Positions 21,464 through 36,561 of a stretch of 43,912 bases of DNA are shown piece by piece. The stretch spans positions 1 to 43,912 of IMG/VR virus record IMGVR_UViG_3300047284_000023; one strand, given 5' to 3'. The position numbers and the translations under genes are program-made. How positions within the stretch are numbered: position 1 is the stretch's first letter; every line of letters begins with the position of its first letter. This DNA is from a virus. The notes under the pieces are model-generated. The model did not search any database. It saw only the letters and a list, made by a program, of their open reading frames with translations, and was not told the DNA's origin.

Positions 21464-23962
21464 TTAGGCGCTTTGGATCGGGATTTTGACCGCTCGACCG
21501 CTCAAGCCAGTGCCGCGGAAGTAAACGGTGCCGGCTTTGGCTGCGCCAGGCAATCGGGCCAGCACGGTGGACCAGCAGTTAGCCCATGCGGTGTCACGGA
21601 GCATGGTGGCGATGGCTTCAGCGGTGTTGGAGATAAACACGTGGCCATCATCTGCCTTGATTCCATTTCTACCTAAAACCGCTTGCGCAATGGTGGATGT
21701 AATATCTGCATCAGCGGCATGATGCGTCGCAATATCTACCAGCTCGCCAATAGTCCTGGTGACCACCTTATCCGCTTCCACGCGGATTTGCTGCTGCAAG
21801 ATACGCTGCAGGCATCGTTTTTCGTCCGGCACCTCTGTGGTTTGAGAGTAAGATTCCCATTCGTTTTGATCAATCAAGGCGAACGCTTGATCGCGTGTCG
21901 GCACCTCGCGCGACTGCAAAGACCATGCTCCAGCCAGCAAGGTGCCGTATTGATCACCAAGCCGCTGGCTATCAAAAGCCTCTGCAGCTGCACGGGTGAA
22001 AACCCTAACCGACTGGCGAATAACGGGAATCAGCGATATGGTTCGCGCCTGCAAGCGTTGCCCGACTTGATCAGTCACGTAGCGGTCAAGATCACGGTCT
22101 AGCGCTTCCCAGTGATCCAACCTTGCTTGCTTGGCGAACTCATTTGGATTGCGCAAGGTAAGCTGCGCAAATCGTGATTTATCGGCGCCTTGTTTCAGCG
22201 CAGTAGCAATGCTGCTCATTAGAAACATTGATCGGATGGTGTAGCGCTGAGCATCGCCTTCGGCGCTGCCCTTAATGGTTTGCGCTCGTGACTCGCTGCT
22301 GGCCACACGTGCTAGCGACAGCACGGCCTGCATCCGCTGCTGATCTGGACGCTCGTTGGACTCCGCCTCGTCAAACACCACCGGCAATGCATCGGCCCGT
22401 AGGGTCTGCCGTAGGCCAGCTTCACTGGTGTTGCCTGCCACGTGAAGGGCAAGGTCGCCGAGCAACGGGGCGATGTAGCGATCAAGGATGGCGGATTTGC
22501 CGGATCCGGCGCCTGCTGTGAGCCAGATATGCGGCCGCCAGTCCAGGGCGCCGCAGATCGGCGCAAGCGCTGCCCATCCAGCAATAAGCAGCCCAGACGC
22601 TGGCACCTCCCATTTGAACCGCCCCGCCAGCTCCAGCAGCAGATATGCATCTTGATCGGCAAGTGGCACTGCCTTGCCGGGACCGCGCAAGCTGCCAAGC
22701 CGCTGGTACAGGTATCGGCTGCCGGCAATGCCGGAGGATATGGACGCCTCTCGATCAGTCAATACAAGCCGATCGCCTAGGTGCAGTACGGATTGCTTTT
22801 GGTCCCACCATGCACCACGGCCGCGGATGCGATCTGGTGAGTAGATGCCGGCAGCGGCTTGACGCTCAAACAGGCTGCTGGCCGCTGCGGTCCAGTTGGC
22901 ACCGGTCTTTGATGGGTAAAGCGACTCCCAATAAGCGAGCGGCGCAATGGCGCAGAGATTGGTGCCGGTATGCGCCGAGCGCGACAACCTGGTTACTTGG
23001 CCAGTGCTGTGCGGCTGGTAATAGAAGGCGTCATGATCAAAGCCAAGGCACGTGAAATAGTCATTGCCATCCGGCAGTGGATCTGGCTCAATGGCTGGCT
23101 CTGGATCGGGTTCTGGCACCAATTCCGGCAACTCAATCGGTGCGGAGCGGTTGTGCTTGAGATATGCAGCGGCCGCGGCCGCGCTCCAGTCGGCATCAGC
23201 CAGATCCCACCCTTCTGGCACGTCTGCTGGCGGATGGACGATGCGCACTTGATCAGCGCCAGCCTTCAAAAGCCTGATCGCCAGCTTTGCCATGGCTTCA
23301 CGTCCGACATCATCAGCGTCAGGCCATAGGACACAACGCCTGCCTGCCAGCGGTGACCAGTCAGCTTTGTCGATAGCCTTGCAGCCGCTGGGCCAGGTGA
23401 CGACCACGGCTGATGGATAGAGAAGTGCTGCTGCATCAGCGGTCTTTTCGCCTTCAACCACCAATACCGGTGCATTGGGCTTAAGCGCTAACTGGCGCTT
23501 GCCATACAGCGGACGTGGCGCCGGCGGCGCTTTCCACTTCCATGCGGAGCCATCCCACCACAAAGGCAGGATGTCTTTGCCGCCATCTGGCTTGTCTTTG
23601 CGGACAACGTAAAACGTACTGCTGTATTGCCAGAACTGCTTGCCGTGCGGCAATGGCGGATCTGGCATCGGCTTGGCAATGCCTAAATGCTGCTCGATAC
23701 GCTGGCAGGCTTCGGCGTAGGTCAAGTTCTGGTGGCGCATGAATAGATCCATGCCGGTGCCACCACCACCTGTTTGATCCTTGCCACCGCATTTGTTGCA
23801 ATACCAAGAGCCGGAGCCGTCTTGATCATCAAAGCGGTAGCGATCCTTGCCGCCGCATAGCGGACAGGGTTGGTGCTTGTCGGATAACTGGTCTGGCGTC
23901 AAGCCACAAAAATGCGCCAGCAGATCGGGCCACCTGCCGTTGGTAAGTTCAGCGATGCTCAT
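21464..23962 (-). CDS. Primase-helicase (zinc, Toprim, ATPase domains)
   Basis: The protein has 832 residues. The zinc domain uses Cys33, Cys36, Cys55 and Cys58 (QPCPLCGG, WYCNKCGG). The Toprim-like primase domain shows VLVVEGEKT (Glu170) and VLWPDADD (Asp215/Asp217). A proline-rich linker is centred at residues 278-298, and the helicase-type ATPase has Walker A LTAGAGSGKS (481-490) and Walker B VVFDEAE (about 528-534). It would unwind DNA and lay down primers at the fork. The gene starts inside the end of the preceding small gene and stops at the last iteron of the candidate origin. Confidence 0.92.
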   Translation of the reverse strand: MSIAELTNGRWPDLLAHFCGLTPDQLSDKHQPCPLCGGKDRYRFDDQDGSGSWYCNKCGGKDQTGGGGTGMDLFMRHQNLTYAEACQRIEQHLGIAKPMPDPPLPHGKQFWQYSSTFYVVRKDKPDGGKDILPLWWDGSAWKWKAPPAPRPLYGKRQLALKPNAPVLVVEGEKTADAAALLYPSAVVVTWPSGCKAIDKADWSPLAGRRCVLWPDADDVGREAMAKLAIRLLKAGADQVRIVHPPADVPEGWDLADADWSAAAAAAYLKHNRSAPIELPELVPEPDPEPAIEPDPLPDGNDYFTCLGFDHDAFYYQPHSTGQVTRLSRSAHTGTNLCAIAPLAYWESLYPSKTGANWTAAASSLFERQAAAGIYSPDRIRGRGAWWDQKQSVLHLGDRLVLTDREASISSGIAGSRYLYQRLGSLRGPGKAVPLADQDAYLLLELAGRFKWEVPASGLLIAGWAALAPICGALDWRPHIWLTAGAGSGKSAILDRYIAPLLGDLALHVAGNTSEAGLRQTLRADALPVVFDEAESNERPDQQRMQAVLSLARVASSESRAQTIKGSAEGDAQRYTIRSMFLMSSIATALKQGADKSRFAQLTLRNPNEFAKQARLDHWEALDRDLDRYVTDQVGQRLQARTISLIPVIRQSVRVFTRAAAEAFDSQRLGDQYGTLLAGAWSLQSREVPTRDQAFALIDQNEWESYSQTTEVPDEKRCLQRILQQQIRVEADKVVTRTIGELVDIATHHAADADITSTIAQAVLGRNGIKADDGHVFISNTAEAIATMLRDTAWANCWSTVLARLPGAAKAGTVYFRGTGLSGRAVKIPIQSA

Positions 23963-24440: not shown

Positions 24441-26699
24441 ATGACCTACCAAGAGTTTCTAGCTTCCAAATCCACTGCAGCACCTGTTGCCGGCTTTGAC
24501 CCGGAGACGTTCACAGCGCCGCTGTTCCCGTTTCAGCGGGACATCGTGACCATGGCTTGCCGTGTCGGCAAGTTCTGCATCTGGGCTGACTGCGGCATGG
24601 GCAAAACCGCCATGCAGCTTGAGTGGGCGCATCAGGTGCATCAGCACACTGGCGGCAACGTGCTAGTGCTGGCACCGCTAGCCGTAGCGCATCAGACCGT
24701 GCGGGAAGGCAGCAAGTTCGGCATCCCATGCGCGTTCGCTGCCACGCAAGCTGAGGTCAAACCCGGCATCACGATCACCAACTACGAGAAGCTGAGCCAC
24801 TTCGACCCATCCGCCTTCGATGGCGTGGTGCTCGATGAGAGCAGCATTCTCAAGGCGTACACCGGCAAGATCCGCAACCAGATCATTGAGTCATTCAGCC
24901 TGACGCCATACCGTCTGGCCTGCTCAGCAACGCCAGCACCGAACGACCATATGGAGCTCGGCAACCATGCTGAGTTCATCGGCGTGATGACCCGCACCGA
25001 AATGCTGGCCATGTTCTTTGTGCATGACGGCGGTGACACCGCTAAGTGGAGGCTCAAAGGCCACGCAAAGAGCAAGTTCTGGGAGTGGGTCTGTAGCTGG
25101 GCGGTCACCATCCGCAAGCCATCAGACCTTGGCTATGAGGATGGCAATTTCGTGCTGCCGGCGCTGCAGATCCAAGACTGCACGGTTGAGACGCCGCGTG
25201 AGGCAGTTGCGGGTGATGACGGGCAGATGGCGCTATTTGCCATGGAGGCTCGCACGCTTAATGACCAGCGCAAGGTGCGCAAGGCCAGCCTGCAGCTCCG
25301 CGTTGCAGCTGCCGCCAAGCTGGCCAACAGCAACACTGAGCAGTGGTTGGTGTGGTGTGATCTGAATGATGAGAGCAAAGCGCTCACTGCCGCCATCCAT
25401 GGCGCCGTTGAGGTGTCAGGCAGCGACAGCGACGACCACAAGCGACAGGCTGCTATCGACTTTCAAGATGGCAAGATCCGCGTCCTAGTTAGCAAGCCGA
25501 GCATCTTCGGCTTTGGCCTGAACTTTCAGCGGTGCCACAATGTTGCATTTGTCGGTCTATCGCACAGCTACGAGGCGTTCTATCAAGCCATCCGCCGCTG
25601 CTGGCGGTTTGGGCAAGATCAGCCGGTTAATGCGCACATCATTTACGACGTGGCAGAAGGCCGCGTGATTGACAACATCCGCCGCAAGGAAGCGGACAGC
25701 ATCGCTATGGCCCAATCAATGGTTAAAATCATGAAACAAACCACGATGGAACAACTCAAAAAGATCCAGCGCCAAGTGGCGCCGCATGTCACTGAGCACA
25801 AGTCCGGCGATGGCTGGGACATGTATATGGGTGACTGCGTGGAGAGCATCAAGCAACTGGATGACAACTACATTCACTACAGCATCTTCAGTCCACCATT
25901 CGCATCGCTCTACACCTACAGCAACAGCGACCGCGATATGGGCAACAGCCGCACTGAGCAGGAGTTCTTTGATCACTTTTCTTTCCTAGCCACCGAGCTG
26001 CATCGCGTGATGATGCCGGGTCGGCTGATCAGCTTTCACTGCATGAATCTTCCCAGCAGTAAAGAGCGCGATGGGTTTATCGGTGTGAAGGACTTCCGCG
26101 GCGACATGCTGCGCATCTTCCAAGCTGCTGGCTTTGTGTTCCATAGCGAGGTGTGCATCTGGAAGGATCCAGTGACCGCTATGCAGCGCACTAAAGCAAT
26201 CGGGCTACTCCATAAGCAAGTGCGCAAGGATTCAGCACTTAGCCGCCAAGGCATCCCGGATTATTTGGTGACGGTGCGCAAGCTTGGTGACAACCCAGAA
26301 CCCGTGGCTGGACCGTTCACGGAGTTTACCGGTGAGAATCCACCAGCCAAAAGCGGTGACCCGATCAAGGATTCCATCAACATCTGGCAGCGCTACGCCA
26401 GTCCAGTGTGGATGGATATCAACCCATCGGACACGCTGCAATACCGCAGTGCCCGCGCCAATGAAGATGAGCGCCACATCTGCCCACTACAGCTTGAGGT
26501 GATCCGCCGCGGCCTGCAACTGTGGAGCAATCCAGGCGACGTGGTACTGTCGCCGTTCGCTGGTATTGGCAGCGAGGGTTATTGCAGCATCCAGGCTGGG
26601 CGCCAGTTTGTCGGCTTTGAGCTGAAGCCGTCGTATTTCAACTGTGCAGTCAAGAACCTGACTGAGGTGGCCAGCAACCGTCAAGGAGTGCTGGTGTGA
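24441..26699 (+). CDS. SNF2-type helicase fused to a beta-class DNA methyltransferase
   Basis: The protein has 752 residues from the ATG at 24441; upstream in-frame codons fall in the operator and antisense to the regulator. The N-terminal half is an SNF2-like ATPase: Walker A CGMGKT (51-56), motif II DESS (132-135), SAT (162-164) and motif VI QAIRRCWRFGQ (382-392). The C-terminal part is a DNA methyltransferase with motif IV SPPF (484-487) before the SAM motif PFAGIG (705-710), the beta-class order; an N4-cytosine or N6-adenine product is possible. Residues 262-266 (QMALF) resemble a clamp-binding peptide. First gene of the rightward unit. Confidence 0.9.
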   Translation: MTYQEFLASKSTAAPVAGFDPETFTAPLFPFQRDIVTMACRVGKFCIWADCGMGKTAMQLEWAHQVHQHTGGNVLVLAPLAVAHQTVREGSKFGIPCAFAATQAEVKPGITITNYEKLSHFDPSAFDGVVLDESSILKAYTGKIRNQIIESFSLTPYRLACSATPAPNDHMELGNHAEFIGVMTRTEMLAMFFVHDGGDTAKWRLKGHAKSKFWEWVCSWAVTIRKPSDLGYEDGNFVLPALQIQDCTVETPREAVAGDDGQMALFAMEARTLNDQRKVRKASLQLRVAAAAKLANSNTEQWLVWCDLNDESKALTAAIHGAVEVSGSDSDDHKRQAAIDFQDGKIRVLVSKPSIFGFGLNFQRCHNVAFVGLSHSYEAFYQAIRRCWRFGQDQPVNAHIIYDVAEGRVIDNIRRKEADSIAMAQSMVKIMKQTTMEQLKKIQRQVAPHVTEHKSGDGWDMYMGDCVESIKQLDDNYIHYSIFSPPFASLYTYSNSDRDMGNSRTEQEFFDHFSFLATELHRVMMPGRLISFHCMNLPSSKERDGFIGVKDFRGDMLRIFQAAGFVFHSEVCIWKDPVTAMQRTKAIGLLHKQVRKDSALSRQGIPDYLVTVRKLGDNPEPVAGPFTEFTGENPPAKSGDPIKDSINIWQRYASPVWMDINPSDTLQYRSARANEDERHICPLQLEVIRRGLQLWSNPGDVVLSPFAGIGSEGYCSIQAGRQFVGFELKPSYFNCAVKNLTEVASNRQGVLV

Positions 26700-28261
26700 T
26701 GCAACTCCGCCCCTACCAGCAACAACTAATCAACGACATCCGACTGCAGTATCAGTTAGGGCGTAAGTCAGTCCTAGCAGTGCTCCCCACCGGCGGTGGC
26801 AAGACGGTGTGCTTCAGCTACATCGCCCAACAAGCCAGCATCAAAGGCAACCGCGTGTGCGTGCTGGTGCATCGCGCTGAGCTACTGGATCAAGCCAGCC
26901 GCGCCATGCCAATGCCGCATGGCCGCATCAGTGCTGGCCGTGGCATGGACCTCAGCCACGCGGTGCAGATCGCATCAGTGCAGACACTGGCGCGACGGCT
27001 GCACCTGCTGCCGCGCGATTTCTTCCAGCTGCTGATTGTCGACGAGGCACACCACACCAGCGCCGGCACATGGGCAAAGGTGATCGATCACTTTGCGCAA
27101 GCCAAGCTGCTCGGCGTCACGGCAACCCCAATCCGCAGTGATGGACGTGGGCTTGGTGAGCACTATCAGGCAATGGTGGAAGGCCCATCGGCGCAGCAGT
27201 TAACGGATGCTGGATTCCTAGCTGCCGCCAAGGTGCTGGCACCGCCTGGATTTGACTCCACCGGCATACGCAAGCGCATGGGTGACTTCGACCCTAAGGA
27301 GGCTGAGCAGCGCGTCGGCACGATCATGGGCGATTGCCTTGGCCACTACCGCAAACACCTGCCAGGGCAAACGGCTATTGCGTTCTGCTGCTCTGTGGCA
27401 CACGCGGAGGCAGTGGCAACACTCTTCCAGTCAGCAGGCATCGCCGCGGCCAGTATTGACGGCAGCATGGATACTGCGCAGCGCCGGCAGCTGCTGCAGG
27501 ACTTGGGCACCGGCAAGCTCAAGGTGCTCACCAGTTGCGCGCTGATCGGGGAAGGCGTGGATGTACCAAGCGTCGGCGGCTGCATCCTGCTGCGGCCTAC
27601 GGCAAGCGTGGCGCTGCACCTGCAGATGATCGGCAGATGCCTGCGCCCGCAACCGGGTAAGCGTGCAGTGGTGCTCGACCACGTGGGCAATACGCTCCGG
27701 CTTGGCCACCACTTGGAGCCGCGCGAGTGGACACTAGACGGCATTAAAAAGCGCAACCGCGAGGCAGCGCCATCGGTCAAGGTGTGCCCGCAGTGCTTCG
27801 CCACCAGCGCCAGTGCTGCACAGGTATGCCGCGAATGCGGTCATGTGTTTGCACCGCAAGAACGCCGTGAGTTGCAGCAGGTGGATGGCGAGTTGGTGGA
27901 GGTAAAATCTCTGGATCAATCGTGGCTTAGATATCGAAGCCCCGTAGAAGTTTATTTTGGTTCAGACTACGGGTGGATGAGTGGATTCGAGGTATGTAGA
28001 TATTCCGCTGAAAAAGTTAATGGTCAATGGGTAGAAAAAACTATTACCGTAGAAGCTACCCAGGCTGGATTGATTGGACCCGGAGATAAAATGGATGTCG
28101 ACAGATCACGCGTTAGACCGGACAGCCAAGGAGCAAAACGCCAGCAAGGCAGCGCCCAGTCCCTCGACGATCTCCGCGAGCTAGCGCAGCAACGCGGCTA
28201 CAAGCGAGGATGGGCTGAGAGGGTCTATCAAGCTAGGTTGCTCAAGAGGTATAGGGAATGA
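26699..28261 (+). CDS. SF2 DEAH helicase with C-terminal zinc ribbon
   Basis: The protein has 520 residues from the ATG that overlaps the upstream TGA by one base. Motifs are Walker A PTGGGKT (30-36), DEAH (115-118), VTATP for motif III, and an arginine-finger segment QMIGRCLRPQ. A four-cysteine ribbon follows (VCPQCFA, VCRECGHVF). The C-terminus ends in a short AQQRGYKRGWAERVYQAR domain that is also found as a loose fragment at 28947-29075. A patch at 27901-28080 counts to about 43 percent GC against 57-63 percent in flanking lines, so this segment looks exchanged. Confidence 0.88.
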   Translation: MQLRPYQQQLINDIRLQYQLGRKSVLAVLPTGGGKTVCFSYIAQQASIKGNRVCVLVHRAELLDQASRAMPMPHGRISAGRGMDLSHAVQIASVQTLARRLHLLPRDFFQLLIVDEAHHTSAGTWAKVIDHFAQAKLLGVTATPIRSDGRGLGEHYQAMVEGPSAQQLTDAGFLAAAKVLAPPGFDSTGIRKRMGDFDPKEAEQRVGTIMGDCLGHYRKHLPGQTAIAFCCSVAHAEAVATLFQSAGIAAASIDGSMDTAQRRQLLQDLGTGKLKVLTSCALIGEGVDVPSVGGCILLRPTASVALHLQMIGRCLRPQPGKRAVVLDHVGNTLRLGHHLEPREWTLDGIKKRNREAAPSVKVCPQCFATSASAAQVCRECGHVFAPQERRELQQVDGELVEVKSLDQSWLRYRSPVEVYFGSDYGWMSGFEVCRYSAEKVNGQWVEKTITVEATQAGLIGPGDKMDVDRSRVRPDSQGAKRQQGSAQSLDDLRELAQQRGYKRGWAERVYQARLLKRYRE

Positions 28262-28848
28262 GGGTACTCGTTGCCTGCGAATACAGCGCCCGAGTGCGTG
28301 ATGCGTTCCGCAGTCATGGCCACGACACATGGAGTTGTGACCTACTGCCGTGCGAAGGCGACCCCGAATGGCATCTGCAGCAGCCAGTCGAGGAGGTGCT
28401 AAGCGATGGCTGGGATCTGATGATTGCCCATCCGCCGTGCACGCATTTGGCGGTATCTGGTAGCAGGCATTTTCACCGCAAGCAGCGTGAACAAGCGGAA
28501 GCGCTGGATTTTGTGCGCTTGCTGATGGCAGCGCCTGTCGACCGCTGGTGCATTGAGAACCCTGTCAGCGTGATCAGCTCCGCCATCCGCGTGCCCGATC
28601 AGATCATCCAGCCGTGGCAGTTCGGTCATGGCGAAACCAAGGCCACCTGCTTGTGGCTCAAGAACTTGCCCAAGCTCAAGCCGACTGAGATTGTGCCTGG
28701 TCGAGAGCCGAAGGTGTGGCTCATGAGCGGCAAGGATCGCTGGAAAAACCGCAGCCGCACCTATCAAGGCGTGGCCGATGCCATGGCGCAGCAGTGGGGT
28801 GCCGTTACGCTGCCACCACCGATGCAGCAGTTAGCCATTGGCATCTGA
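28258..28848 (+). CDS. Short cytosine-5 DNA methyltransferase-like protein
   Basis: The protein has 196 residues. It has the SAM-binding start RVLVACEYSARVRDAF, the catalytic-type motif AHPPC (57-61) and ENP (100-102, in place of ENV), which are the core of m5C methyltransferases. It is shorter than active restriction-type enzymes and lacks a clear target-recognition domain and the late motifs. It may use a partner, or may modify loosely or not at all. It is coupled by an ATGA overlap to the helicase. Confidence 0.7.
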   Translation: MRVLVACEYSARVRDAFRSHGHDTWSCDLLPCEGDPEWHLQQPVEEVLSDGWDLMIAHPPCTHLAVSGSRHFHRKQREQAEALDFVRLLMAAPVDRWCIENPVSVISSAIRVPDQIIQPWQFGHGETKATCLWLKNLPKLKPTEIVPGREPKVWLMSGKDRWKNRSRTYQGVADAMAQQWGAVTLPPPMQQLAIGI

Positions 28849-28948
28849 GCAATCCATCCAGCAAGAGATACGCATCGCCTGCAGCAACGGTGACACGCGC
28901 CTGTTCCGCAATAACACCGGCACGCTCAAGGACGCCAACGGCCGCCCA
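28841..28948 (+). pseudogene. VRR-NUC nuclease, N-terminal fragment
   Basis: About 36 codons (ASEQSIQQEIRIAC..., RLFRNNTGTLKDANGRP) align with the first 40 residues of the intact VRR-NUC at 29869 (LQQRIRLALG, LRLFRNQVGQLPDPRTGRP). The similarity stops at 28948, before the catalytic residues. The frame stays open through to the PAPS-reductase-like gene, so a TTG-started fusion (from 28838) is formally possible, but the segment 28949-29071 in that frame is out-of-frame helicase sequence. Confidence 0.65.
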
Positions 28949-29075
28949 GCTCCGTGCCAGCGAGCGCAAGCGTGCCCGAACCTTGCCCGAGCTGCTCGCC
29001 ATCGCCGCACAGCGCGGCTACTCGCCCGGCTGGGCGTATCGCGTCCACAATGCCCGGAGCAACGCAAACCGATGA
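28947..29075 (+). pseudogene. Helicase C-terminal domain fragment
   Basis: In another frame from the nuclease fragment, 42 codons read RTLPELLAIAAQRGYSPGWA and on to a TGA at 29073-29075. They match the C-terminal domain of the intact helicase (SLDDLRELAQQRGYKRGWAE). The TGA overlaps the ATG of the next gene as ATGA. This suggests that a helicase gene once ended here, directly coupled to the PAPS-reductase-like gene, before recombination put other genes in front. Confidence 0.65.
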
Positions 29076-29872
29076 GGCACATCTTCTCCTGTGGTGGCGG
29101 CGTCCAGTCCACTGCCTGCCTGGTGCTCGCGGCGCAAGGGCGTACCCCCTACCGCACCTTCATCTTCGCCAATGTCGGAGACCAGGCCGAAGATCCACGC
29201 ACCATCCGCTACATCAACGAGGTGCTGAAGCCCTACGCGGCGCAGCATGACATCGAGTGGGTGGACGTGCAGCGCCAGCGCCGTGATGGCACCCCGGTGG
29301 ACCTCTACCAAGAACTGCTGCGCCCCATCAGGTCGATCGACATCCCGGTGCGCATGGCAAACGGTGCGCCGGGCAACCGCAACTGCACCGTCCACTTCAA
29401 GATCAAGCCCATCGCCAAGTGGATCCGCAAGCACGCGCCTGGCTGCACCCTTGGCAAGGGCATCAGCACCGATGAACCACACCGTGCCACGCCATCCCGT
29501 GAGGACGATGGCTACACCTCCGCCTACCCGCTGATTGAGCTGGGACTGAGCCGTGGCGATTGCTTGCGAGTGGTGCGCGAAGCCGGACTGCCACAGCCGC
29601 CAAAATCCAGCTGCTGGTTCTGCCCCTACAAGACAACAGACCAGTGGACAGCCATGCGCCGCGAACGGCCAGAGCTGTTCGCAAAAGTCGCGGACATCGA
29701 GCGCCGGCTCAACGTCAAACGCAGCGAGATGGGACGCGATGCCGTCTACATCAGCTCAGTTGGCTCCCGCCGCGAGCTGGCTATCGAACAAGCAGTGCCA
29801 GACCAGTTGGGGCTGTTTCCCGAGTGGATTGAGGAACAAGATGGATGCGAGTCTGGCTACTGCATGACATGA
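29072..29872 (+). CDS. PAPS-reductase-like PP-loop protein
   Basis: The protein has 266 residues. The N-terminal PP-loop-like motif is FSCGGGVQSTA (5-15), in the place of SGGxDS in ATP pyrophosphatases. A paired-cysteine segment SCWFCPYKT (180-188) and further cysteines (105, 125, 164) suggest metal or Fe-S binding. This superfamily includes PAPS reductase, tRNA-modifying enzymes and DndC; in phages its substrate is unknown. Given the adjacent methyltransferases, nucleic acid modification is a fair inference. Residues 245-249 are QLGLF, close to the clamp-binding consensus. Confidence 0.8.
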   Translation: MRHIFSCGGGVQSTACLVLAAQGRTPYRTFIFANVGDQAEDPRTIRYINEVLKPYAAQHDIEWVDVQRQRRDGTPVDLYQELLRPIRSIDIPVRMANGAPGNRNCTVHFKIKPIAKWIRKHAPGCTLGKGISTDEPHRATPSREDDGYTSAYPLIELGLSRGDCLRVVREAGLPQPPKSSCWFCPYKTTDQWTAMRRERPELFAKVADIERRLNVKRSEMGRDAVYISSVGSRRELAIEQAVPDQLGLFPEWIEEQDGCESGYCMT

Positions 29873-30225
29873 ACGCCGAGACCGACCTGCAGCAGCGCAT
29901 CCGCCTGGCGCTCGGCACCCAGCATGACCTGCGCCTGTTCCGCAACCAGGTCGGTCAGCTGCCAGATCCCCGCACCGGCAGACCCGTTCAGTTCGGCCTC
30001 GCACGCGGCTCCGCAGATCTCATCGGCTGGCGCACCGTGACAATCACCCCCGACATGGTTGGCCAGCGCGTGGCCGTGTTCACCTCCATCGAGGTCAAGA
30101 CCACCACCGGCCGCCTCACGCCCGCACAGCACAACTGGCTCGGCGTGGTCCGTGGGGCTGGTGGCATCGCTGGCGTGGCGCGGTCAGTCGAGGATGCGTT
30201 GCGGATTATGACGGCAGAGGGTTGA
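29869..30225 (+). CDS. VRR-NUC nuclease
   Basis: The protein has 118 residues from the ATG that overlaps the upstream TGA as ATGA. It has the PD-(D/E)XK-type core of VRR-NUC proteins: the QQRIRLALG helix, GRPVQFGLARGSADLIG with Asp50, then SIEVK (Glu75, Lys77) and a conserved Gln87. VRR-NUC nucleases cut branched or flap DNA and in phages often travel with SNF2-type helicases. Its stop codon lies within the -35 of the next promoter. Confidence 0.85.
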   Translation: MNAETDLQQRIRLALGTQHDLRLFRNQVGQLPDPRTGRPVQFGLARGSADLIGWRTVTITPDMVGQRVAVFTSIEVKTTTGRLTPAQHNWLGVVRGAGGIAGVARSVEDALRIMTAEG

Positions 30226-30249
30226 CAGGGGTTGCACATGGTGTAGGAT
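30222..30249 (+). promoter_or_regulatory. Sigma-70-type promoter with nearby dyad
   Basis: TTGACA (30222-30227, perfect) and TAGGAT (30244-30249) are 16 bp apart. The spacer contains TTGCACA (30232-30238). The promoter resembles that at 17994-18021 at 26 of 35 positions. Just downstream, GCCGG-ACAA-CCGGC (30258-30271) is a perfect 5-bp-arm hairpin close to the expected start site and could be an operator. The next gene starts at 30289. Confidence 0.7.
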
Positions 30250-30288
30250 ACGCGCAAGCCGGACAACCGGCACCCCAAACCGAGAACC

Positions 30289-30483
30289 ATGATTGCAACC
30301 ACTCTGCTAGTCATCTGGAAATTGCTACTGCCGCTGCTCTTTGTGGTGGCAGTAATTGACCTACTGACAATGACTCCAGATCGCCGCATCCGTTTTTTGC
30401 GCAGCACTGGCCTTAGTCAGCGTCAAATCGCCAATCGCCTCAACCTGTCCACCTATCGCGTCCGTAAGGCGCTGATGGCATGA
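30289..30483 (+). CDS. Membrane-anchored helix-turn-helix protein
   Basis: The protein has 64 residues. A single hydrophobic segment (about residues 2-27, LLVIWKLLLPLLFVVAVIDLL) is followed directly by a LuxR/sigma-4-like helix-turn-helix, RFLRSTGLSQRQIANRLNLS, and TYRVRKALMA. A membrane segment joined to a DNA-binding motif this small is unusual. It might tether DNA to the membrane or respond to membrane state. It is the first gene behind the promoter at 30222. Confidence 0.65.
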   Translation: MIATTLLVIWKLLLPLLFVVAVIDLLTMTPDRRIRFLRSTGLSQRQIANRLNLSTYRVRKALMA

Positions 30484-30605
30484 ACAATCTGAACCGCTTT
30501 GCCGTGCTGGCAATCATCTTCGGTGTCTGGGCAATGGCCTATGACACCGGCCGCCAGCAGCCTGCCTACAGCCATCACGCCTGCCAAGAGCAACTCAAGC
30601 CATGA
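30480..30605 (+). CDS. 41-residue single-span membrane protein
   Basis: The ORF starts at an ATG overlapping the upstream TGA (30480-30483) and ends at a TGA overlapping the next ATG (30602-30605). It begins MNNLNRFAVLAIIFGVWAMA, a short membrane segment, followed by a polar His/Gln-rich tail. The ATGA links on both sides make it credible despite its size. Function unknown. Confidence 0.6.
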   Translation: MNNLNRFAVLAIIFGVWAMAYDTGRQQPAYSHHACQEQLKP

Positions 30606-30802
30606 CAGAAGCAGACATCTACTGGACATTTGCCACCGCCTACCAGCACGGCGGTGGATTCTTCCAAGCCCTAGCCGCTGCTGGCCTTAAGGCTGACCCC
30701 GGCAACAAGCGCCGCCTGCTGGATGCGTTCCCCGAGCTGGTCGCCACCTACGGCACCGCTAGCCGTATGCACCGCAATCTGCGCAGTGGGGCAGCGGTAT
30801 GA
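30602..30802 (+). CDS. Small protein, unknown function
   Basis: The protein has 66 residues (MTEADIYWTFATAYQHGGGF; LLDAFPELVATYGTASRMHR), probably helical. It is coupled on both sides by 4-bp overlaps and lies just before the recombination nuclease. No motif is recognised. Confidence 0.65.
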   Translation: MTEADIYWTFATAYQHGGGFFQALAAAGLKADPGNKRRLLDAFPELVATYGTASRMHRNLRSGAAV

Positions 30803-31590
30803 CCAGCAATGCCGACTACCACGCTGACCCAGCCGTCAGCGCCAGCCACCTGCACGCAGTGGCTAAGTCGCCCTATCACTACTGGAGTCGCTATCTAGAC
30901 CCGCAGCGCGTGTCAGTGGAACCCACTACAGCTATGCGACTTGGCTCGTTGGTGCATTGCGCAGTGCTGGAACCGGAGGAGCTAGCGGGCCGCTATGGGG
31001 TCTGCGGTCCACGCAACACCAAGGCAGGCAAGGAGCAAGCGGAGCGCATGGCAGCCGCTGGCATTGAAGCCGTCACTCAGTCCGACATGGCACTTGCACT
31101 ATCTATGGCGCTGAGTGTGCGTTTGCACCCTGCAGCAGCAGCACTGCTTGCCCAAGGCAAGGCTGAGCAGAGCTTCTGGTGGGATGACGCTGCTACTGGG
31201 CTGCGGTGCAAGTGCCGCCCTGACTGGTACGCCGGCACCACGGTGGTTGACCTGAAGACCACCACGGATGCCAGCCCTGCCGGCTTTGCCCGTAGCGTGG
31301 CCACCTTCCGCTACCATGTGCAAGCGAGCCACTACCTAGCCGGCTTGCACGGTGCTGAGCGGTTTGTGTTCATTGCCGTTGAAAAGACTGCCCCGTACGT
31401 GGTTGCGGTCTACGAGCTTGACGCCGCGGCCATGGCTGCTGGTGATGAGCTACGGCAACGTGATATGCGAGTGATTGCCGATTGCCAAGCCATCTCTGAA
31501 TGGCCCGGCTACGGCAACACCATCCAATCGCTCAGCCTGCCTTCATGGGCATTACGCAACGACACTGCTATTACTTCGGAGGACTTCTAA
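30799..31590 (+). CDS. RecE-like PD-(D/E)XK exonuclease
   Basis: The protein has 263 residues and matches the C-terminal nuclease domain of RecE / exonuclease VIII (DUF3799 type). Visible catalytic marks are GSLVH (His53), CRPDW (Asp142), VVDLKTT (Asp151, Lys153) and QASHY (Gln175-Tyr179). It would resect double-stranded ends to expose 3' single strands for the Bet-type annealase two genes downstream. The start overlaps the upstream stop by 4 bp. Confidence 0.88.
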   Translation: MTSNADYHADPAVSASHLHAVAKSPYHYWSRYLDPQRVSVEPTTAMRLGSLVHCAVLEPEELAGRYGVCGPRNTKAGKEQAERMAAAGIEAVTQSDMALALSMALSVRLHPAAAALLAQGKAEQSFWWDDAATGLRCKCRPDWYAGTTVVDLKTTTDASPAGFARSVATFRYHVQASHYLAGLHGAERFVFIAVEKTAPYVVAVYELDAAAMAAGDELRQRDMRVIADCQAISEWPGYGNTIQSLSLPSWALRNDTAITSEDF

Positions 31591-31886
31591 TGAGCAACCA
31601 TCGCGTGCACCGCATTTGTGTGTATTGCGATTGCGTCTACAGCGTTTCCCGCTCCGCCCCTGGCGATCATTTCCCTGTTCCGATGCGGCACGGCGGCATT
31701 GATGCTGTCAATTGCTGCCGAGAATGCCATTCACTGAAAGACCGCATCAATCTGGACAACTGGAGCACTGCAATGCTTAGCAAAGTTGCGGCTGATTTTC
31801 CAAAGCTCAGCCGAGAAACCAGAATCTTTTTAGCTAAAGCGATCACTTTATTTCAAGACGCAAAAGCATTAACTGAAGCACAATGA
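31590..31886 (+). CDS. Small HNH-like zinc protein
   Basis: The protein has 98 residues from an ATG overlapping the upstream TAA by one base. Cys10/Cys13 (ICVYCDC), Asp26-His27 (GDHFPVP), Gly35-Gly36, Asn41 and Cys43/Cys46-His47 (CCRECHSLK) match the HNH endonuclease frame with two zinc-knuckle pairs. The C-terminal part is a helix (KLSRETRIFLAKAITLFQ). It is wedged between the exonuclease and the annealase, so it may nick recombination or replication intermediates. Activity is not certain. Confidence 0.6.
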   Translation: MSNHRVHRICVYCDCVYSVSRSAPGDHFPVPMRHGGIDAVNCCRECHSLKDRINLDNWSTAMLSKVAADFPKLSRETRIFLAKAITLFQDAKALTEAQ

Positions 31887-32641
31887 GCACATCAATCACG
31901 CTTTGGACCCCAGAACAAACGCAGCTGATCTCAACCACCATTGCGCCTGGCTGCAGCAATGACGAGTTGCGCCTGTTTGCTTACGCCTGCCAGCGCACTG
32001 GGCTGGATCCGTTCAGCAAGCAGATCTACGCCATCAAGCGTGGCGGCAAGATGACCATCCAGGCCGGCATTGATGGCTTGCGCGCGATTGCCGAGCGCAC
32101 CGGGCAACTGGATGGCAGTGAAACCTACTGGTGTGGTGAAGATGGCGAATGGCAAGACGTATGGCTTGGCAGCAAGCCACCTGCCGCGGCCAAGACCATC
32201 ATCTACCGCAAGGGCAGCCAGCATCCGTTTATTGGCGTCGCACGATTTGCTGACTACAACGCCGGCCAAGGCTTGTGGAGCAAGATGGGCGCCGCGATGA
32301 TCGCCAAATGCTCTGAAGCGCTAGCACTGCGCAAGGCGTTTCCCGCTGACATGTCCGGTGTCTACAGCACTGATGAGATGCAGCAGGCAGAGGTCGAGCC
32401 GGTGACCGTTACCGCTGCACCTGCACCTGCGCTCCCAGCAGGCGACGCCAAGCTGTTCCAAGCCGGCAAAGCTGCCATCGCCAAAGCCGACACGCTCGAC
32501 AAGCTGCAGGAGGTAGTAGCACGCATGGACAAGCGCAAGCCTGATCTCAGCGACGAGCAGAATCAGCAGCTGATGGAGCTAGCGCTGGCCAAAGAGGCTG
32601 AGCTAGCACCTGCCAATGAGGATCCCTTTGCTGATGACTGA
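31883..32641 (+). CDS. bet: Bet/Red-beta-type single-strand annealing protein
   Basis: The protein has 252 residues. It carries the family pattern: TIAPGCSNDELRLFAYACQR, GLDPFSKQIYAIKR, IQAGIDGLRAIAERTG and ALRKAFPADMSGVYS. Red-beta-like proteins anneal complementary strands and promote recombination. The C-terminal 70 residues are variable and rich in Ala, Lys and acidic residues, likely the partner-binding domain. With the RecE-like nuclease and SSB this forms a complete phage recombination set. Confidence 0.93.
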   Translation: MSTSITLWTPEQTQLISTTIAPGCSNDELRLFAYACQRTGLDPFSKQIYAIKRGGKMTIQAGIDGLRAIAERTGQLDGSETYWCGEDGEWQDVWLGSKPPAAAKTIIYRKGSQHPFIGVARFADYNAGQGLWSKMGAAMIAKCSEALALRKAFPADMSGVYSTDEMQQAEVEPVTVTAAPAPALPAGDAKLFQAGKAAIAKADTLDKLQEVVARMDKRKPDLSDEQNQQLMELALAKEAELAPANEDPFADD

Positions 32642-34865: not shown

Positions 34866-35396
34866 ATGACCATCCTTTGCGACTACGAGATCAAAGCACT
34901 CTGCACCGACGGCATGGTGCAAAACTATGAAGAGGCATTGATCAATCCCGCCAGCCTTGACCTGCGGCTTGGTGACACGATCATGATTGAATCCGCCGAG
35001 GACTTGGACATGCGCCCGCTCAGTATTGCAGGCGCTACTGCGGGCAATCCTTATTGGCTCAAGCCTGGGCAGTTCATCCTTGCGCAGACAATCGAGGTGT
35101 TCCACATGCCGGAGAACATTGCTGGCCTGTTTTTCCTCAAATCCAGCCGCGCACGGGAAGGGTATGAAAACCTGCACGCTGGTTACGCAGATCCAGGTTG
35201 GCATGGCAGTGCGCTCACCTTGGAGCTGAAGAACTCGCGGCAGATCCTGCCATTGCCGCTATGGCCTGGGTTGAAGATCGGGCAGATGGTGTTCTTTCGC
35301 ATGAGCCAGCAGCCAGAGACTAGCTACAGCGTCACCGGCCATTACAACTCAGACCTCACGACGACGGCTTCGAAGCAACTCCTCAGCGGCATCTAG
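34866..35396 (+). CDS. dcd: dCTP deaminase
   Basis: The protein has 176 residues. The Dcd/dUTPase-fold motifs are clear: INPASLDLRLGD (26-37), FFLKSSRARE (89-98, with the SSxAR of Dcd), AGYADPGWHG (105-114) and LTLELKN (117-123, catalytic-type Glu120). It would convert dCTP to dUTP, feeding dTTP synthesis. Its end overlaps the antisense gene at 35349 by 48 bp. Confidence 0.9.
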   Translation: MTILCDYEIKALCTDGMVQNYEEALINPASLDLRLGDTIMIESAEDLDMRPLSIAGATAGNPYWLKPGQFILAQTIEVFHMPENIAGLFFLKSSRAREGYENLHAGYADPGWHGSALTLELKNSRQILPLPLWPGLKIGQMVFFRMSQQPETSYSVTGHYNSDLTTTASKQLLSGI

Positions 35397-35609
35397 GTGC
35401 CACTGCTCTAGGCCAGTTCGCAGCGCTGCCGACGCTTCCTGTACTAGCCAGTGGATTTGAGACCGCTGGCTTGCTTCTTGCTCAGCAAGTAGCAGCGCAT
35501 ATTCCAACAATCCACCCCAATCTGCTGCAGCATGTAACGCACGCAACTGCGCGGCATTGGCAGCGCCGTGAAATTGTGCTTCCATTGTATGAACTAACGG
35601 ATTTCCCAT
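35349..35609 (-). CDS. Small antisense gene between dcd and sigma, unknown function
   Basis: The product has 86 residues from the ATG at 35609 (MGNPLVHTMEAQFHGAANAA), or 78 from the ATG at 35585. The sequence is a plausible helical protein (QLRALHAAADWGGLLEYALL, QIHWLVQEASAALRTGLEQW) and fills a 211-bp stretch with no plus-strand gene. It runs against the surrounding operon, overlapping dcd tail to tail and the first bases of the sigma gene head to head. Transcripts could interfere with dcd and sigma expression. Confidence 0.55.
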   Translation of the reverse strand: MGNPLVHTMEAQFHGAANAAQLRALHAAADWGGLLEYALLLAEQEASQRSQIHWLVQEASAALRTGLEQWHLDAAEELLRSRRREV

Positions 35610-36561
35610 GTCTGATGCCATTGGCGACTACTTAAACAGTATCGCTCGTTATCCACTTTTGACACCGCAACAAGAGATACAACTTGGCCGCCGCGTCGCA
35701 AAGTGGAAAGAACTAAAGGATCTTGAAAGACCTTTGACCACTCAGGAACGCCGCGAGTTGCGCAGTGGCGAACGCGCCCGCCAGCAATTTATGCAGTCCA
35801 ACCTGCAACTGGTGGTGCATGTTGCCCGTAAATACAGCAAACGCAACAACCAAACACTAGAGATGCTGGATCTCATCCAAGAGGGCAATATCGGCCTCGC
35901 GCGTGCTGTAGAGCTGTTTGACTACAGCCGCGGCTATAAGTTCTCCACCTACGCCTATTGGTGGATTCGTCAGGCGATCGGACGTGCATTGGTGCAGTAT
36001 GACCCGATCATCAGATTGCCGCTTGGCATTCACGAGATGCTGGTCAAGATCAACAAGACTGCACAGTTATTTGCGCAAGAGCATGGCCGCACTGCAACAA
36101 TGGCGGAACTTGCTGCAGTGCTTGATGTGACGCCTGAAGTCATCTCTGACACGCTGAAGCAGGCATATCGCGTTACCAGCCTCGATAAGCCAGCACAGGA
36201 AGACACGTCAAACATCTTGGACCTCATTGCAGATGAGAAGCAATATGACGTTGAATACGACTGGCAGCTTGAGGTATTACGCGATCATTGTGAGCAGTAT
36301 TTAGATGAGCGCACGCGGGAGATCATCTATGCACGCAATAGCCGTAATCCAGTGCCGTGGAATGACCTAGAGAAACGGCTTGGTATTTCACGTAGTCACA
36401 TGTGCCAGCTTCAGTTGCGTGGTATCAACCGCCTTCGTATGCTGATAGGCAATCCCCTGGCAGGCACACCTCTTGGGACCGACCATAAAGAAAATAGGGA
36501 ATACTTGGAGAGTTTGCCTGGCTGGGATGTGCAAGGATCACCAGCAGGAATGGCAGGCTAA
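35608..36561 (+). CDS. Phage-encoded sigma-70-family factor (primary/group 2 type)
   Basis: The protein has 317 residues. Region 1.2 is DAIGDYLNSIARYPLLTPQQ (3-22). Region 2 spans about 62-128, with LDLIQEGNIGLARAVELFDY and KFSTYAYWWIRQAIGRAL close to cyanobacterial sigma factors. Region 3 (about 136-195) includes RLPLGIHEMLVKI. Region 4 (about 232-280) is diverged: the recognition helix reads GISRSHMCQLQ where primary sigmas have VTRERIRQIE. A 37-residue tail follows. It would direct host RNA polymerase to late phage promoters. Last gene of the rightward unit; its stop overlaps the convergent HNH gene. Confidence 0.93.
   Translation: MSDAIGDYLNSIARYPLLTPQQEIQLGRRVAKWKELKDLERPLTTQERRELRSGERARQQFMQSNLQLVVHVARKYSKRNNQTLEMLDLIQEGNIGLARAVELFDYSRGYKFSTYAYWWIRQAIGRALVQYDPIIRLPLGIHEMLVKINKTAQLFAQEHGRTATMAELAAVLDVTPEVISDTLKQAYRVTSLDKPAQEDTSNILDLIADEKQYDVEYDWQLEVLRDHCEQYLDERTREIIYARNSRNPVPWNDLEKRLGISRSHMCQLQLRGINRLRMLIGNPLAGTPLGTDHKENREYLESLPGWDVQGSPAGMAG

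Follow-up and report, generated by a model that had tools for sequence, protein, structure and literature searches.

Dyads of an SNF2 protein and a methylase form a known theme of counter-restriction, with the DarB protein of phage P1 as their archetype (PMC5512222). VRR-NUC proteins that stand alone, in phages as in bacteria, form dimers and cleave four-way junctions (PMC4103454), and the helicase RadD of E. coli accelerates strand exchange by RecA (PMC8887467). In the cyanophage isolate S-LBS1, genes for an SNF2 protein, a methylase, a helicase, one unknown protein, a VRR-NUC protein, an annealing protein and an SSB follow one another in this order, and the authors of that genome assign them to a replication module (PMC6157547).

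We analysed a related arrangement in a 43.9-kb cyanosiphophage record (IMGVR_UViG_3300047284_000023), referred to here over its whole length of 43,912 nucleotides as the window. It is kin of S-CBS3, S-H1 and S-LBS1, with the cyanosiphophages S-CBS3 and S-H1 as its nearest named relatives. Family scans of the window identified genes for tail, capsid, portal and terminase, for a polymerase processivity factor, an endolysin and a sigma factor, and for replication and recombination (primase, RecE and RecT). A dCTP deaminase-like gene (34866-35393; phrog_1663, E 1e-49) lies beside the sigma factor gene (35608-36558).

An earlier note had described five adjacent genes of the window as a translationally coupled cassette. 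The five same-strand genes are present in the order and at the coordinates given there (Table 1), and Pfam and PHROG family scans support all five domain calls in outline. Coupling was upheld in part: stop and start codons overlap at three of the four junctions (TGATG at 26697-26701, ATGA at 28258-28261 and ATGA at 29869-29872), and the junction between the m5C-like and PP-loop genes has no overlap. Pairwise comparisons gave dN/dS values of 0.08-0.25, indicating purifying selection on all five genes and hence that the m5C-like and PP-loop families, the two cargo families discussed below, are both functional in these phages.

Table 1. Features of the five-gene region and its flanks, in window coordinates.
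Feature	Position	Strand	Supporting match
Primase/helicase, divergently transcribed (context)	21464..23962	-	phrog_35358 E 6e-139; Zn_Ribbon_Prim
SNF2-like helicase/translocase with C-terminal beta-class N6/N4 DNA methyltransferase, 752 aa	24441..26699	+	Pfam, PHROG
RadD-like SF2 helicase with zinc ribbon	26699..28261	+	ResIII 101 bits
Small cytosine-C5-methyltransferase-like (m5C-like) protein, 196 aa, slot cargo	28258..28848	+	phrog_757 E 2e-68
Recombination scar, no intact gene	28838..29071	+	blastn breakpoints 28923-28943
PP-loop ATP-pyrophosphatase, PAPS-reductase/SspD-like, 266 aa, alternative slot cargo	29072..29872	+	phrog_424 E 7e-38
Stand-alone VRR-NUC nuclease, predicted Holliday-junction resolvase	29869..30225	+	VRR_NUC 42.8 bits (cut-off 23.8)
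RecE-like exonuclease VIII domain (context)	30799..31590	+	DUF3799 111.7 bits; phrog_412 E 2e-90
RecT-like annealing protein (context)	31883..32641	+	phrog_2780 E 6e-65

In order to follow the conservation of this arrangement, 80 loci with close relatives of the SNF2-methyltransferase were fetched, and fractions were counted where the contig was long enough. The SNF2-methyltransferase gene is followed by that of the RadD-like helicase in 75/75 loci and has a VRR-NUC gene no more than 4 kb away in 56/56, usually with RecE/RecT next. The check on conserved co-occurrence that the earlier note had proposed went against its cassette, as the same core loci contain an m5C-like gene in 7/56 and a PP-loop gene in 0/56; a shorter relative in this set (L002) does have a PP-loop gene. 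Further loci were collected with the PP-loop protein (66 loci) and the m5C-like protein (80 loci) as queries. Where both flanks were complete, 19 of 53 PP-loop genes and 9 of 60 m5C-like genes lie between the RadD-like and VRR-NUC genes, and most loci are without the rest of the cassette (50 of 60 for m5C-like, 29 of 53 for PP-loop); most genes of either family outside this interval are near terminase, portal or other genes. Among 111 RadD/VRR-NUC loci, our own record included, the interval is empty in 48, holds an m5C-like gene in 20, a PP-loop gene in 25 and something else in 18, frequencies that are biased by the choice of loci for similarity to window proteins (least so in the SNF2 set) and that include some near-duplicate contigs. 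The other occupants include an HNH endonuclease, a C5 methyltransferase of PF00145 and unknown proteins; an N6/N4 methyltransferase also occurs, next to a PP-loop gene. None of the 110 other loci from the three queries has m5C-like and PP-loop genes together in the interval. The single, co-inherited five-gene system of the earlier note is thus replaced by two genes that mostly occur apart from the rest and substitute for one another. The interval between the RadD-like and VRR-NUC genes is an exchangeable slot, filled with accessory and often putatively DNA-modifying cargo, or with nothing.

The core on either side of the slot points to recombination and replication. The helicase, for which ATG 26699 is the likelier start, has a C-terminal CxxC..CxxC cysteine ribbon and E. 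coli RadD as its best solved relative (E 3.6e-31); as it does not pass the NCBIfam equivalog model of RadD (132.4 vs 720 bits), we call it RadD-like and not RadD. The VRR-NUC gene, with ATG 29869 as the likelier start, encodes a single-domain PF08774 protein that falls in phrog_5702 (Holliday junction resolvase) and whose homologues are annotated likewise; a single VRR-NUC query against PDB chains gave no detectable sequence match. A Pfam scan of the five-gene cassette found no nuclease domain besides VRR-NUC. Together with RecE, RecT and the primase, the RadD-like helicase and the VRR-NUC protein would remodel and resolve branched intermediates during recombination-linked replication; E. coli RadD works with RecA, and coupling of the phage helicase to RecT is an assumption here. 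The resolvase family of the VRR-NUC protein, the role of RadD and the adjacent RecE, RecT and primase genes favor recombination or replication over restriction. A methyltransferase and a restriction endonuclease paired by inheritance, as in a restriction-modification system, were not found: the sole nuclease is VRR-NUC, and a cargo methyltransferase is present in 7/56 core loci. VRR-NUC does accompany the N6/N4 enzyme of the core, but as a member of a resolvase-type family (PMC4103454).

The SNF2-methyltransferase scores 50.2 bits for N6_N4_Mtase (cut-off 26.7) and 33.2 bits for Helicase_C (cut-off 23.5), and also matches DEAD/SNF2-like helicases and phrog_16 (E 3e-78). Its methyltransferase domain (PF01555, residues 480-737) is C-terminal to the helicase, the motifs GMGKTA, DESS, SPPF and FAGIGS are kept among its relatives, and the gene is a patchwork of alleles. 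Most likely the protein would track phage duplex DNA and methylate it against host restriction, and protection of the phage DNA through its own methylation is plausible. The SNF2-methyltransferase pair is also found, fused or split, without nearby RadD or VRR-NUC in phages of Flavobacterium and Gordonia and in a Methanosarcinales virus, and S-CBS3 combines an SNF2-methyltransferase with a RusA resolvase, without RadD or VRR-NUC in the stretch examined. Two independent units have thus been brought together, and a resolvase of another family can substitute. No description of this gene set turned up in the literature searched.

With a probability that we put at about 0.77, the locus is best read as a module for recombination-linked replication, combined with phage self-methylation and accessory modification cargo, and not as a restriction or Dnd system. 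The gene identities, conserved order, slot exchange and mosaic junction behind it come from the present analysis, while the resolvase, RadD and methylase-helicase activities are those of published relatives; we infer modification of phage DNA by the cargo, and protection through that modification.

Which modification the PP-loop cargo might make is the subject of a further reading that is compatible with this account. The PADLOC model of SspD matches 42/42 aligned PP-loop relatives, and the window protein gives a partial match to it (E 1.5e-15 over 115 residues); PAPS_reduct (PF01507) falls just below cut-off (19.7 vs 22.5 bits). The predicted fold is near those of PAPS reductase, TtuA, NcsA and LarE (yeast PAPS reductase, E 3.5e-05). 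Five cysteines are invariant (C105, C181, C184, C259 and C264), of which C105, C181 and C184 could hold an Fe-S cluster and C259 and C264 lie in a flexible tail. A function in sulfur transfer is likely, judging by sequence and structural prediction. The best PDB sequence relative of the family is chain C of 21fy, 'PptA' (E 3e-16), for which our literature searches found no explanatory paper. More specifically, the protein may produce a phosphorothioate or a thio-base on phage DNA in the manner of SspD or DndC, with a host cysteine desulfurase as sulfur donor. The consistent SspD matches, the sulfur-transferase-like fold, the invariant cysteines and the sharing of one slot with DNA methyltransferases all argue for this, as does the finding that IscS can stand in for DndA (PMC10853773); still, no Ssp or Dnd partner was seen, and tRNA or nucleotide thiolation, or sulfate reduction, would fit the PP-loop fold equally well, so that we regard DNA sulfuration as possible and tentative. 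Cysteine desulfurases of the PF00266 type (DndA/SspA) have no match in the record, although the search recovered 14/14 controls; a host enzyme could substitute. There is no DndD, DndE, SspB or SspC among the five cassette proteins (the other window proteins being covered by the PHROG scan alone), and just one of the five, the PP-loop protein, matches a model of an Ssp modification component. A ParB/IbrB-type partner was rejected, there being no ParB_N in the record, and tight linkage of the PP-loop gene to one type of VRR-NUC was not supported, with two types at PP-loop loci (16 and 10). Should the PP-loop cargo sulfurate DNA, the phage itself would carry a sulfur-based DNA modification.

The m5C-like protein belongs to a family annotated 'DNA methyltransferase' (phrog_757), in which C61 of a PPC motif and E100-N101-P102 (ENP) are invariant. 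No Pfam family, PF00145 included, matches it. Its AF2 model (pLDDT 83.6) has DNMT3A and M.HaeIII as nearest folds at modest TM-scores near 0.5; the m5C label is thus a prediction from PHROG, the PPC and ENP motifs and the modelled fold. With its 196 aa the protein has no room for a target-recognition domain of ordinary size. It is 69% identical to a protein of Methanosarcina virus MetMV (L233:6504-7055), in which a PAPS-reductase-like gene lies ~1.2 kb from the m5C-like gene; this likeness to an archaeal-virus protein suggests exchange between viruses of different domains.

The co-presence of both cargo genes in the window coincides with a scar between them. The m5C-like stop codon (28846-28848) is separated by 223 nt from the PP-loop ATG at 29072. 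The left part of this interval is the 5' end of a VRR-NUC gene, its first ~35 codons, extending to about 28942; the right part (28943-29074) comes, out of frame, from the 3' end of another helicase allele. Up to about 28932 the window aligns with relatives ordered helicase, m5C-like, VRR-NUC, and over 28943-30541 it shows 99.94% identity (blastn) with L002, L084 and L085, contigs from other data sets in which a different helicase allele is directly followed by PP-loop and VRR-NUC genes. The PP-loop gene retains its ATG, but the stop/start overlap that such genes usually have with the helicase gene is gone. An open frame of 344 aa (28838-29872) spans the VRR-NUC remnant and the out-of-frame end of the helicase and continues into the PP-loop gene, and could yield an N-terminally extended PP-loop protein. 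Within VRR-NUC, a helicase/m5C-like/VRR-NUC segment would have been linked to the tail end of a helicase/PP-loop/VRR-NUC segment, and the pairing of the two cargo genes in the window is accordingly explained by recombination between two alleles of the region.

As the window is a metagenome contig, the main caveat is that this mosaic is an assembly chimera of co-occurring strains and that no phage has both cargo genes. In agreement with a chimera, the junction 37-mer is absent from all other IMG/VR contigs, and identity among the window, L002 and L006 is about 100% over the primase but patchy over SNF2-RadD. On the other hand, the ~8 bases shared at the junction fall far short of the k-mers commonly used in assembly, so that an error of that kind is less likely, and the flanking allele is found in contigs of other data sets; we therefore consider a chimera unlikely.

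A second mosaic junction lies in the helicase gene, which follows an L002-like allele up to the Walker A codons and an L006-like allele thereafter, with a breakpoint near 26805. Its first ~110 bases are a 98% match to L002, which diverges past the Walker A codons, and L006 is identical to the window over the next 72 bases beyond them. In three other loci (L003:12256-12909, L020:3069-3722 and L021) the opening 35-36 codons of a RadD-like helicase are joined, right at Walker A, to the frame of an HNH_3 endonuclease, with a full helicase gene downstream; the site is that of the window crossover. We infer that HNH endonucleases may drive allele exchange by homing; plain recombination at the codons of highest conservation would leave a similar picture. 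In its strongest form, this proposal makes the interval from RadD to VRR-NUC a plug-in site at which a large population of aquatic cyanophages swaps DNA-modification enzymes, including a new sulfur-based modification, with HNH homing endonucleases cutting the Walker A codons of the helicase and repair exchanging the allele together with the downstream cargo; so complete a chain is doubtful.

Least probable is a true five-part modification/nuclease system, in which the helicases load two modifiers and the nuclease destroys unmodified host or rival DNA: co-directional genes, overlaps at 3/4 junctions, purifying selection and the direct adjacency of PP-loop and m5C-like genes in two other phage groups (L125, and the near-identical L127, L128, L130 and L147) speak for it, but the two cargo genes share the slot in no other locus, each is mostly found elsewhere, they meet at a scar in the window, stand-alone VRR-NUC proteins are junction resolvases (PMC4103454), and no further nuclease domain was found in the cassette. 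In L125 (8001-9376) and L127 (2133-3505) the PP-loop and m5C-like genes overlap by stop and start codons, and no RadD/VRR-NUC core was found there.

An apparently new multi-gene modification-nuclease system can therefore be a product of recombination, and the claim that replaces it, of a conserved recombination core with an exchangeable modification slot, is testable. The new elements here are the exchangeable cargo slot and the HNH endonuclease located at the Walker A codons of the helicase; should the exchange be driven by HNH endonucleases, homing would be linked to rapid switching of modification in widespread aquatic cyanophages.

With the described SspABCD and DndABCDE systems the locus shares the PP-loop match to the SspD model. 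A complete Ssp/Dnd set was rejected, since no desulfurase was found in the record and no second modification component among the five cassette proteins. As in the DarB dyad, one phage protein joins an SNF2 translocase to a DNA methyltransferase, with a probable anti-restriction role (PMC5512222). DarB-type proteins differ in carrying an N-terminal EcoKI/TaqI-like methyltransferase and LPD36, and DarB itself is part of the virion; in the window protein the methyltransferase is C-terminal and belongs to the PF01555 (beta) class. Membership of the DarB type was rejected on domain order and methyltransferase class (PMC5512222). The helicase resembles E. coli RadD as an SF2 helicase with a C-terminal cysteine ribbon, and differs in its pairing with VRR-NUC. 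Like psNUC, stNUC and saNUC (PMC4103454), the VRR-NUC protein, here a predicted resolvase, is a single-domain protein beside phage recombination genes. In enterobacterial Jilinvirus phages a RadD-like helicase, variable genes and VRR-NUC are found next to exonuclease VIII. S-LBS1 (MG271909) and S-H1 (MK105819) share with the locus the order of SNF2-type helicase, N6/N4 methylase, RadD-like helicase, slot, VRR-NUC and annealing protein, and differ in having helicase and methylase as separate genes and no PP-loop gene; their slot is occupied by one unknown gene in S-LBS1 and by a C5 methyltransferase with small ORFs in S-H1.
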